Positions 1 through 2,844 of a stretch of DNA of 64,000 nt are shown piece after piece. Each line of letters begins with the position of its first letter. Position 1 is the stretch's first letter. This stretch comes from Chryseolinea lacunae. GTDB lineage: Bacteria; Bacteroidota; Bacteroidia; Cytophagales; Cyclobacteriaceae. The DNA lies in NCBI RefSeq assembly GCF_016735595.1, contig NZ_JAERRB010000006.1, forward strand, positions 124,001 through 188,000, written 5' to 3'. Below the pieces are notes generated by a model. It saw nothing but the letters and a program-made list of their open reading frames with translations. It was not told where the DNA came from and made no database searches. The translations under genes and the position numbers were made by a program.

Positions 1-1557
1 GCCCAGCTTTAGTTTGCCTGAAAAGAAATTGCGCGTGAGCTGCACAAATGCTCCCGACCTACCGTAGGTGATGTTCTTGTCCGTCTCTTTTGGATTGACA
101 AAATAATTTCCATCGGGCACAATAATGTAGGTTCGATGATCGAAGCCCACCAGCATGTCGATTCCGGAAGCGGTGCGAAAGGATTGAAGCAGTTGTTTGG
201 TGAGATTAACCTGGCCTTCGGCGTGCACCATGCGCGACTGCACGCGAAGGGCCGCGCCATAATCCCAATTGTTGATGTCGCCAAGTTGTGCAATCAGGTT
301 TTGAAAGTCGGGTGTGCCGGGTTGAGGTCTTCCGGCATCGGCAGCATCGCGCGCCGTGTGGTGCGCCGTGGCCACGGTTTCGCCATTGGTGACGGCGGCT
401 TTGTAGGCGTTGGTGTAGTCGCTATACCACACATCGTCTTTCTTGAAACTCTTGTCTATGTTTTCCGACATCGAGCGTGCGTTATACGACTTGCCCGTGT
501 TTTCAAGATTCACGTATGCGCGAATCACCACCGACGGACTCTGAAAGGTGAGGCCATGTTGTTGCAAGCGATAGTCGTCCAGCCGAAACCGGTTGGCGCG
601 TTGATACACATTGTCGAGGTTGGCGATGCGACAGGTGTAGCTGATGCGCATGTCGGGCGTGATGGCATAGGCAATAGACGCGTCGGCCTTTGCGTTCCGG
701 ATGCCATAGTCCACCACATCCCTTTCGTCGTAGCCGGTTCGTGCCACCACATAGTTTTTTCCATTCAGCGAAAGCGTGCGCCGGTTCGATGATTCGTTGC
801 CATAGGCATTCACCGGATCGCGCGCAGGGTTGTCGGCGCCGGTCAGGCCCGTGCTGCTGTTGGCGTTGGGATTCAGGTCGGTGTGATCGTTGGCTACCCA
901 GTCGGTGCCGCGCAAAAATGTGGCGTTCACTTTAAACGCAAATCGCGAATGAAACACGTGGGCCCAACGCAAGCTTGTTTCGGTGAAAGGTTTTGTTCCG
1001 AAGTCACTTGCCACGCGGTTGAATCCTATCTTCTGTTGCACACTGAACCCCTTGTTCTTGAAAGGATCTTTTGTGATGAAGTTTGCCAGTCCATTGATGG
1101 CGTTCATGCCATACAAAGCCGACGCTGCACCCGGTATGATCTCCACGCTCTCGATGTCGAGGTCGTTGGGGCCAAGCGCGTTTGCGATGGGCGCGCCCAG
1201 GTGTGGCGCCTGGTTGTCCATGCCGTCTACCAGCTGCACAAAGCGCACGTTGGTGGTGTTGGCAAAGCCGCGGGTGTTGATCACCTTAAACCCCATGCTG
1301 GGTGTTATCATTTGCACGCCCTTTGTGTTTTCGAGCGCATCGAAAAATGAAATTGCCGGCGATCGTTTAAAGTCTGCTGCCGTCACCTTCTCGATAGTGA
1401 CAGGTGATGCGGCGATACGCTCTTCGAGGCGCGAAGCGGTCACCACCACATCCTGCAAGCGCGTAACCTTTGTGGTATCTTCAACTTGCTGCGCCACGGC
1501 GGGCACTGTGAGGCCGAGCATGCTGTACAAACAAAAAAAGTGTACACGTCTTATCAT
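1..1557 (-). CDS. TonB-dependent outer-membrane receptor, C-terminus outside the window
   Basis: The frame is open from an ATG at 1557 to the first base of the window (519 codons), so only the N-terminal part is present. It begins with a signal peptide ending near AVAQQ (about residue 24), followed by a plug domain: DVVVTASRLEERI near residue 38, then NTRGF, LVDGMDNQ and the typical IPGAASALYGMNAINGLANF segment before the barrel. Beta-barrel strands with alternating aromatic residues follow up to GAFVQLTRNFFSGKLKLG at the edge. Such receptors import scarce ligands across the outer membrane using TonB energy. The ligand cannot be read from sequence, but a ModE-type palindrome lies 3 bases upstream of the start and a ModE-like gene is the next gene upstream, which suggests control by molybdate or tungstate (inference). 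Confidence 0.9.
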   Translation of the reverse strand, partial: MIRRVHFFCLYSMLGLTVPAVAQQVEDTTKVTRLQDVVVTASRLEERIAASPVTIEKVTAADFKRSPAISFFDALENTKGVQMITPSMGFKVINTRGFANTTNVRFVQLVDGMDNQAPHLGAPIANALGPNDLDIESVEIIPGAASALYGMNAINGLANFITKDPFKNKGFSVQQKIGFNRVASDFGTKPFTETSLRWAHVFHSRFAFKVNATFLRGTDWVANDHTDLNPNANSSTGLTGADNPARDPVNAYGNESSNRRTLSLNGKNYVVARTGYDERDVVDYGIRNAKADASIAYAITPDMRISYTCRIANLDNVYQRANRFRLDDYRLQQHGLTFQSPSVVIRAYVNLENTGKSYNARSMSENIDKSFKKDDVWYSDYTNAYKAAVTNGETVATAHHTARDAADAGRPQPGTPDFQNLIAQLGDINNWDYGAALRVQSRMVHAEGQVNLTKQLLQSFRTASGIDMLVGFDHRTYIIVPDGNYFVNPKETDKNITYGRSGAFVQLTRNFFSGKLKLG

Positions 1558-1560
1558 GTT

Positions 1561-1586
1561 TCGATATATACGAGTGAATATATCGA
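1561..1586 (-). promoter_or_regulatory. ModE-like operator palindrome over the TonB receptor promoter
   Basis: Two 10-base arms, TCGATATATA and AATATATCGA, are separated by CGAGTG. The right arm reversed is TCGATATATT, so 9 of 10 positions match. The E. coli ModE site, as I remember it, has CGnTATATA arms separated by 6-7 bases, which fits in both sequence and spacing. On the minus strand a -7-like TATCTTTC (1585-1592) overlaps the outer edge, so a bound protein would cover the promoter and start region of the receptor. Confidence 0.6.
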
Positions 1587-1684
1587 AAGATACAAAAGGG
1601 ATACGGGTCCATAAAATGCTTTTAACAAACGAGACAGAAAATCGTCGGCACCCCACAAACAACACGTGGGCACGGCCCAAAAGA

Positions 1685-2026
1685 TCAGATCAGTTTCAAC
1701 AACGCTTCATTCCTGGCCACGAGGGCCTGTAGTTTATCATCAAGCTTCCGGTAGGCAGCCACCACAGCTTTGGCCGTGGCTGTTACTTCGGCACCACCGC
1801 CCTTTTCGCCGCCCTTGCGCGCTACTACGTAGGGCTTCTGTCCGAGGGCATTCATTTCTTCCACCATATCCCAGGCTTTTTTATAGGACATGCCCATGGC
1901 TTTGGCCGCTTTGGCAATGGAACCGGTGGTTTCAATGTGGCTCAACAGTTCGGCGCGGCCCGGGCCAAAAAATTTCTCGCCGTCAATGTCTATCCAGCAA
2001 CGTACGCGGAATGTTTTTTTCTTCAT
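1685..2026 (-). CDS. ModE-like single-domain winged HTH regulator
   Basis: This 113-residue protein matches the N-terminal DNA-binding domain of ModE and LysR-type winged helix-turn-helix proteins: an ETTGSIAKAAKAMGMSYKKA helix-turn-helix at about residues 33-52, then a wing with a GGEKGGGAEVT turn, and a C-terminal helix. E. coli ModE has about 260 residues with two molybdate-binding (MOP/TOBE) domains; these are absent here, so the protein cannot sense molybdate the same way. It is encoded on the same strand and directly upstream of the TonB receptor, 127 bases away, and a ModE-type palindrome lies between them. The likely role is metal-oxyanion-linked regulation of that receptor; partner domain proteins for sensing would be encoded elsewhere. 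Confidence 0.8.
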   Translation of the reverse strand: MKKKTFRVRCWIDIDGEKFFGPGRAELLSHIETTGSIAKAAKAMGMSYKKAWDMVEEMNALGQKPYVVARKGGEKGGGAEVTATAKAVVAAYRKLDDKLQALVARNEALLKLI

Positions 2027-2070: not shown

Positions 2071-2844
2071 CTAGTGGTTTAGTGGCTTCAGGTTTTCTAT
2101 CACCTTGTCGTAGATTTTTTTTACCTGTGCATCGCCAAAGCCATACACGCCTTCGCGCAAGGTAAACTCTTTGAACACGGTTTTAAAATCGCGCGAAGTT
2201 TTCTGGACGATCTCGCGGATCACGCGTTCAGGCCGACCCAGTTTGTCCTTGTGCGGGAAGCGATCGATGTGGGCATGGCAAACTTCCTGCAAGTAGGGGA
2301 AGCACATGGACTGATAGATCGACAATTCATGGAGGCGCTGCAGATCGCCTTGTTTGTAGGCCATCCACAGTCCTTCGGCAAGATGCAGATCGCGCGACGA
2401 AAAGACCACACGCTCTTCATAGGCCGCCAACAATTGTTCTGATGTGGCTGCCCCAAATTCCTGCCAGATGTGACGTCGCTCCAGAAATGAAGGATAGACC
2501 ACAGCAATCTCATGTTCGCCTTCGAGGTGCGACAACAACGAAAGCACAAACCACATGTTGGTGCGACAAAACAGATCGTAGCCAAACCACAGGTTGAACA
2601 CGGAGCCGTTGGGCGCGCTCATCAACTTTTCAAATTCATGCACAACATTGGAATAATAATGTATACGCTCTTCGTTGAATTCGTCTTCCACAAAACGGGC
2701 GCGGTTCTCCAGAAATTCTTCCACCGTGTCTCCCTCCAGATTTCCATCGACCATACATTCGCGGGCGATAACAACCTCTCCGGCCAGACCCGTGGCACTG
2801 AAACGCTGGGCGAGGGCGTCGCCATTTAATACATGATACACCAT
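2071..2844 (-). CDS. DUF1835 domain protein
   Basis: 257 residues. The N-terminus reads MVYHVLNGDALAQRF, the hallmark opening of DUF1835 proteins, followed by acidic and aromatic helical stretches (GDTVEEFLENRARFVEDEF) and a DLFCRTNMWFVL segment typical of the family. There is no signal peptide or membrane segment, so it should be cytoplasmic. The biochemical role of the family is not established. It lies 44 bases upstream of the ModE-like gene on the same strand and could share its transcript, though a promoter could fit in the gap. The start ATG at 2844 is the only sensible one because the HVLNGD motif follows directly. Confidence 0.75.
   Translation of the reverse strand: MVYHVLNGDALAQRFSATGLAGEVVIARECMVDGNLEGDTVEEFLENRARFVEDEFNEERIHYYSNVVHEFEKLMSAPNGSVFNLWFGYDLFCRTNMWFVLSLLSHLEGEHEIAVVYPSFLERRHIWQEFGAATSEQLLAAYEERVVFSSRDLHLAEGLWMAYKQGDLQRLHELSIYQSMCFPYLQEVCHAHIDRFPHKDKLGRPERVIREIVQKTSRDFKTVFKEFTLREGVYGFGDAQVKKIYDKVIENLKPLNH

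Follow-up and report, generated by a model that had tools for sequence, protein, structure and literature searches.

The window analyzed in this study, a stretch of 64,000 nucleotides from Chryseolinea lacunae, begins with the 5' part of a gene encoding a TonB-dependent receptor (TBDT; 1–1557, minus strand), with matches to the Plug (56.6 bits) and beta-barrel (87.3 bits) domains. The gene extends to the left beyond the window, and the whole gene comprises 846 codons (G000:C26:123017-125557, G000 being the window's genome). Its ATG is the complement of 1555-1557. An intergenic promoter region recognized from the sequence (1558–1684, minus strand) separates the receptor from its upstream neighbor on that strand, a short modE encoding a ModE-type DNA-binding protein of 113 aa with one domain (1685–2026, minus strand). 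Further upstream, 44 bases from modE, lies a gene for a 257-aa protein with no Pfam or NCBIfam match (2071-2844, minus strand).

The intergenic region contains a perfect inverted repeat, TTTCGATATAT-ACGAGTGA-ATATATCGAAA (1559-1588, no strand assigned), with arms of 11 bases (TTTCGATATAT at 1559-1569 and ATATATCGAAA at 1578-1588, 11 of 11 pairing), 8 bases between them, and a core 24-mer, CGATATATACGAGTGAATATATCG, at 1562-1585. The original prediction had described a palindrome at 1561-1586, 3 bases before the receptor start. Both the palindrome and its distance are exact in the sequence, and the full repeat is longer than claimed, ending 1 base from the ATG. The ModE consensus is given as ATCGNTATATA-[N6]-TATATANCGAT in PMC545781. 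Against the pattern CGNTATATA-N6-TATATANCG, the window site has 1 mismatch among 16 fixed letters and is thus a site of the ModE-regulon type; the claimed agreement with the E. coli site holds for the spacing and for 15 of the 16 letters, one letter being off. Its outer letters are TT/AA, in place of AT/AT in the consensus. With up to 3 mismatches allowed on both strands, the pattern occurs in just one place in the window (0.02 expected from shuffling), and across the 7.9-Mb genome no other place matches with 0 or 1 mismatch. Five others have 2 or 3 mismatches and none of them lies beside a recognizable molybdenum gene; the idea of a larger regulon built on these near matches was therefore dropped.

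The short ModE carries the N-terminal winged-helix DNA-binding domain of the family, matching TIGR00637 with 89.1 bits (E 1.5e-25, below the curated cut-off of 98.5), and phmmer links it to the ModE structures 1b9m and 1o7l and to the one-domain 2ijl in the PDB. As had been predicted, the molybdate-binding domains are missing: no Pfam TOBE match was found in the 113-aa protein at the place of the C-terminal TOBE/Mop domains. A search of the whole genome for a TOBE domain likewise found none (the control search was positive in 12 of 14), and therefore classical TOBE-based molybdate sensing appears to be unavailable in this genome. The gene was said to be the sole ModE-like one in the window, and it proved to be the only match genome-wide. 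Among 86 collected ModE sequences (74 different cores), the DNA-binding domain is well conserved and the motif GGxxGG was present in 85, of which 84 have 32-39 residues after the motif, too few for a TOBE domain.

A short ModE was identified in 23 of 118 genomes of the same bacterial family. When scored with a matrix built solely from 11 boxes of modE-modABC loci, 18 of the 23 short-modE loci contain a box that reaches 10 bits; these are the 11 matrix suppliers and 7 of the other 12, including the window locus, whose box scores 26.7 bits. The box lies between the short modE and modA-modB(-modC) in loci including L012, L013, L015, L016, L020, L022, and L088, before a class-V aminotransferase (cysteine-desulfurase-like) gene in L024 and L025, and at the moeA start in L028. 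In the window's genome, the receptor occupies the place behind modE that is held by modAB(C) in relatives. Fourteen modB loci were also scored. None of the 8 from genomes lacking ModE reached 10 bits (best 9.1), and among the 6 in ModE-bearing genomes a box was found within the 3.6 kb scanned in L073 alone, that of G105 lying further upstream, in L017. A different palindrome, CAATATGCAT-GTCT-ATGCATATTG, is located at the modE start of a Flavobacterium-type locus (L029:1808-1831), and the binding specificity of ModE may have changed in loci of this type.

An alignment of three receptor orthologues yielded 147 relatives, of which the best 80 (Bacteroidota, 52-63% identity) were analyzed. The 400 bases upstream of each receptor were scanned, with box distances counted from the start of the tblastn match, and 78 of the 80 loci had enough sequence. 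Boxes scoring at least 10 bits were present in 46 of the 78 and boxes scoring at least 14 bits in 38, so that the outcome named beforehand as evidence against the original prediction, absence of the palindrome upstream of orthologues, was not observed. In 20 dinucleotide shuffles of the same upstream regions, a mean of 0.2 of 78 reached 10 bits (largest 2). Upstream regions of other genes in the same loci reached this score in 10 of 703 entries, corresponding to 7 sites, some of which count twice owing to divergent genes, 6 before iorA-like genes and 1 before moaA (L141). The family search gave 29 further receptors, most of them paralogues, and no upstream box reached 10 bits in any of these.

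The occurrence of the box follows that of ModE in the genome. A ModE search in 43 of the 44 genomes with no modE seen beside the receptor found ModE in 18, and in five of these (L122, L139, L161, L163, and L171) modE was beside the receptor after all. The box was present at the receptor in 45 of 53 scorable loci in ModE genomes versus 0 of 24 where the genome search gave no ModE (Fisher 1.9e-13, 77 loci; L134 and L149 were not scorable, and L099, with a box, was left out). Because the relatives are not independent, the comparison was also counted on a FastTree receptor tree, in which 8 independent pairs differ in ModE. On average, the box differed in the same way in 5.5 pairs, in the opposite way in 0, and not at all in 2.5 (sign test, median p 0.03, range 0.016-0.25). 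These results bear out the expected co-occurrence of the palindrome, the receptor subfamily, and ModE, and make regulation of the receptor by ModE very likely on sequence grounds. This control is not universal, since 25 of the 80 loci belong to genomes in which no ModE was found.

Eight loci in ModE genomes lacked the box within the scanned region. In L150, L159, and L171 a small gene precedes the receptor and the box lies in front of that gene, some 700 bases upstream, and weaker boxes were found in L094 and L138 (8.3 and 7.0 bits). Just 199 bases are available before the receptor in L127, and in the genome of L160 another copy of the receptor is accompanied by modE and a box. L165 (Flavobacterium), with modE adjacent and no box seen, remains unaccounted for. 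A later phylum-wide draw of 395 genomes yielded the receptor (1e-220) in 12 genomes besides the window's own; these 13 places provided 8 new proteins, 5 of them with a box. The three new box-less receptors (L208, L211, and L214) also have modE adjacent and share the genus code of L213, whose protein is the same as that of L165. Within the same bacterial family, no box was found at the receptor in the orthologues of G114 and G053, and G114 has modE with a boxed modABC elsewhere.

Neighboring genes were counted over the 80 loci, up to 8 kb on each side, with labels extended by similarity. The labels MoCoBD, 2Fe-2S subunit, ModA (SBP_bac_11), class-V aminotransferase, XdhC, MobA-like, TauE, MoaA, MoeA, and MoaC were confirmed with Pfam on one or a few proteins, and ModB with TIGR02141; ModC, MoaD, MoaE, MoeB, CoxG, and the name Ior come from sequence reading alone. 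The commonest neighbor was modE, which adjoins the receptor in 36 loci and in the 5 more found in the later check, followed by moaA-like (23), iorA-like (23), xdhC-like (16), and mobA/mocA-like (16) genes, and more rarely moeA (7), TauE permease (7), moaE-like (6), and moeB-like (6) genes. In L164, the order is xdhC-mocA-moaA-TBDT-moeA-tauE-moaD-moeB-moaE-moaC, where the receptor shares 4 bases with moaA and is separated from moeA by 1 base. The box-less orthologues of G114 and G053 adjoin a MoCoBD hydroxylase, which in L074 has a Tat-signal match. A family of ModE-boxed TonB receptors among molybdenum-cofactor genes is thus found in many bacteria of soil and water across several orders of Bacteroidota, and this linkage extends the evidence of the earlier account with modE, moaA, moeA, and xdhC as neighbors.

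Several other features recur at these loci. In Chitinophaga relatives (L097, L112, L113, L114, L117, L118, and L154), ModE-type boxes also precede iorA-like hydroxylase genes, about 4-8 kb upstream of the receptor. A TauE/SafE permease recurs beside the cofactor genes and the receptor (L197:7944-8684, L129:6057-6794, and L164:11728-12465) and is a candidate inner-membrane molybdate permease; ModB over the cut-off was found in 0 of 7 genomes with such a TauE versus 18 of 43 others searched (Fisher p 0.04). Additionally, a small protein (about 170 aa) that may be a carrier of oxyanions in the periplasm recurs beside modE, modA, TauE, and the receptor (L019:1934-2437, L197:7429-7938, L129:6804-7316, and also L150, L159, L171, L190, and L199). 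It matches PF00174 (Oxidored_molyb) with 30.9 bits in L019 and has no Pfam match in L197 and L129. A second type of TonB receptor (TBDT2, about 657 aa) is found under the same box in L199 (7171-9144, minus strand) and likewise in L174, L181, L185, L186, L192, L213, and L214, with both receptor types side by side in L213 and L214. In C. serpens, modE is followed by a box of 31.7 bits and TBDT2, and two genes on by a small secreted protein and then modABC; counting C. serpens, 6 of 19 loci have the modE-box-TBDT2 arrangement.

The assignment of the window gene to the TonB-dependent receptors is supported by its domain matches, by the model of its C. serpens orthologue, and by the fold matches of that model. 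A SusC/RagA identity was rejected (TIGR04057, 20.1 bits against a cut-off of 46.2), and no SusD-like partner was recognized by eye among the recurrent neighbors of the receptor loci. AlphaFold gives a good model for the C. serpens orthologue (pLDDT 86.1, pTM 0.86), with long helical stretches at residues 345-410 and 542-605. Foldseek placed this model closest to Cir, PirA, PfeA, and BtuB (probability 1.00, 10-15% identity), OprC appears among the distant matches, and the plugs of Cir and PhuR are nearest by sequence. Fifty-five positions, including 11 Asn, are invariant in the family (at least 95% in 80 members) and rare in 32 paralogues. These clade-specific residues are mostly Asn, Asp, Tyr, Gln, Arg, and Ser, which would fit molybdate or a chelate alike.

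The window's genome encodes two MoCoBD proteins, one of which has a 2Fe-2S subunit, xdhC, and a mobA-like gene as neighbors. We take both to be of the xanthine-oxidase type, which makes tungstate a less likely ligand than molybdate. Of the molybdate or tungstate uptake originally proposed, the molybdate part is supported by the conservation of the box and the linkage to cofactor genes. No TIGR02141 match to a ModB permease was found in this genome at E 0.001, with 13 candidates scored; this profile matches 94 of 118 genomes across the family at E 0.001 (53 over the cut-off) and 14 of 14 genomes in a positive control (8 over the cut-off). A TauE search revealed the gene string moaA-small secreted protein-TauE on C25, with a second, weaker ModE-type site of 14.7 bits before moaA. 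The case for this box comes from its place, because in related DNA a chance match of at least 10 bits turns up about every 250 kb, and in the window's genome two matches that lie within coding sequence reach 14.9 and 15.3 bits. In 1.24 Mb of related DNA outside receptor upstream regions, 13 hits of at least 10 bits were found, of which 8 lie at hydroxylase genes or moaA. The iorAB-like locus (C24) and the second MoCoBD gene (C29) were rejected as ModE targets (best 2.2 and 3.0 bits). A MOT1-type molybdate transporter was also rejected, both PF16983 matches in the genome being SulP permeases; these two may likewise serve to bring molybdate into the cell.

Promoters of Bacteroidota carry a -7 element with the consensus TAnnTTTG. 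A weak -7-like octamer, TATCTTTC (1585–1592, minus strand), overlaps the edge of the repeat, sharing 1 base with the 24-mer and 4 with the 30-base repeat. The overlap that had been noted is thus real in terms of shared bases and weak, the octamer being one base off the consensus. An exact TAnnTTTG occurs at box offset 3 or 5 in 11 of 46 orthologous boxes and anywhere overlapping in 12 of 46, compared with 3 of 46 in the reverse direction and 18 of 1575 control stretches. This overlap arises partly because the box itself contains TATA, and the promoter picture is incomplete because just 2 of the 12 boxes with TAnnTTTG have TTG 17-25 bases upstream.

Taken together, these results suggest that this receptor family of Bacteroidota probably imports molybdenum and is repressed by a one-domain ModE when molybdenum is plentiful. 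The short ModE, presumably as a dimer, would bind the palindrome at the receptor promoter and start codon. Binding would block the promoter, so that the receptor would be off when molybdenum is plentiful, as with E. coli ModE at modABC, and would be made when molybdenum is scarce. E. coli ModE represses modABCD according to PMC11980592. Molybdenum is the likely ligand, given the regulation and the gene neighborhood, and would be carried across the outer membrane as molybdate or as a molybdate chelate. The inner-membrane step in the window's genome, where no ModB was found, is probably performed by the TauE/SafE-type permease that lies behind moaA in the gene string with the weaker ModE box, or by the SulP anion permeases. 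We tentatively propose, with rather less than even confidence, a route independent of ModABC that consists of a ModE-controlled TBDT, perhaps a PF00174-like periplasmic carrier, a TauE/SafE permease, and a TOBE-less one-domain ModE that would sense molybdenum.

The receptor might instead import an organic substrate of the hydroxylases (an aldehyde, a purine, or a heterocycle) and be co-regulated with these enzymes since they need molybdenum. The iorA-like genes, found within 8 kb in 23 of the 80 loci, directly behind the receptor in L074, L075, L109, and L120, and themselves preceded by ModE boxes in Chitinophaga relatives, are consistent with this role. However, the commonest neighbor is the regulator modE, genes of cofactor biosynthesis occur no less often than those of any enzyme, the receptor of L164 stands between moaA and moeA, and the two hydroxylase loci of the window's genome lie elsewhere and have no box. 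A regulator repressing in response to molybdenum would also switch such an importer off just when the enzyme can work, and we consider substrate import unlikely. Even less probable is that the box is bound by another regulator, the one-domain ModE having lost its sensor. The lack of a detected TOBE domain in the genome, and hence of classical TOBE-based sensing, would agree with such a loss, but the box tracks the presence of ModE over the 77 scorable loci and on the tree, and the DNA-binding domain of ModE is well conserved. A chance AT-rich repeat was rejected as having a negligible probability, considering the window expectation of 0.02, the uniqueness of the site in the genome, and its conservation before orthologous receptors far beyond that in shuffled sequences.

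A variant that does not exclude the molybdenum-import reading concerns the form of the ligand, which may be a molybdenum chelate of the catecholate-type molybdophore kind instead of the free oxyanion. TBDTs usually take large ligands and protochelin binds molybdate, which favors a chelate. The nearest solved folds are those of catecholate-siderophore and cobalamin receptors, among them PfeA solved with protochelin, and would suit a chelate better than free molybdate. On the other hand, fold matches at 10-15% identity say little on the ligand, the clade-specific invariant residues are compatible with either form, and no genes for chelator biosynthesis were recognized among the recurrent neighbors, of which representatives were read by eye. 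Thus, a chelate is possible and, in our estimation, somewhat unlikely.

Porins are usually assumed to be the route by which molybdate crosses the outer membrane. If the proposed function is true, molybdenum would join the metals imported with TonB energy by Gram-negative bacteria, and the receptor would help explain how Bacteroidota lacking ModABC supply their molybdoenzymes. Moreover, with no TOBE protein found in this genome, the long-standing question of metal sensing by one-domain ModE becomes testable here. In the open-access literature, with most subscription journals outside its scope, we found no earlier description of a ModE-boxed molybdenum TBDT. A term search of the review PMC11658791 gave no hits for molybd-, tungst-, or oxyanion, and this silence means little because nickel, copper, and lanthanide are equally absent from it.

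Among known systems, the receptor shares the plug-and-barrel fold of Cir, PirA, PfeA, and BtuB, but it differs in its low identity to them and in the long helical stretches of the model. OprC (copper) and MnoT (manganese) are likewise TBDTs for trace metals induced by scarcity, and the ModA-IcmP route of P. aeruginosa is likewise a molybdate acquisition involving an outer-membrane protein, as described in PMC8602904; however, OprC and MnoT serve cations under other regulators, and the present analysis showed no sequence kinship between them and the receptor. The one-domain ModE of Desulfovibrio (PMC545781) and the 135-aa PDB chain 2ijl also consist of the ModE DNA-binding domain alone, and how the Desulfovibrio protein senses metal is called unclear in the same source. 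Its box is given there as CGGTCACG-N14-CGTGACCG, whereas in the Bacteroidota loci the E. coli type of box is retained. The closest parallel in regulation is ModE/modABC of E. coli, which is alike in the DNA-binding domain and in the box and from which the repression logic is assumed. It differs in that the regulator here lacks both molybdate-binding domains, and in that the target here is an outer-membrane receptor in a genome where the ABC importer was not seen.
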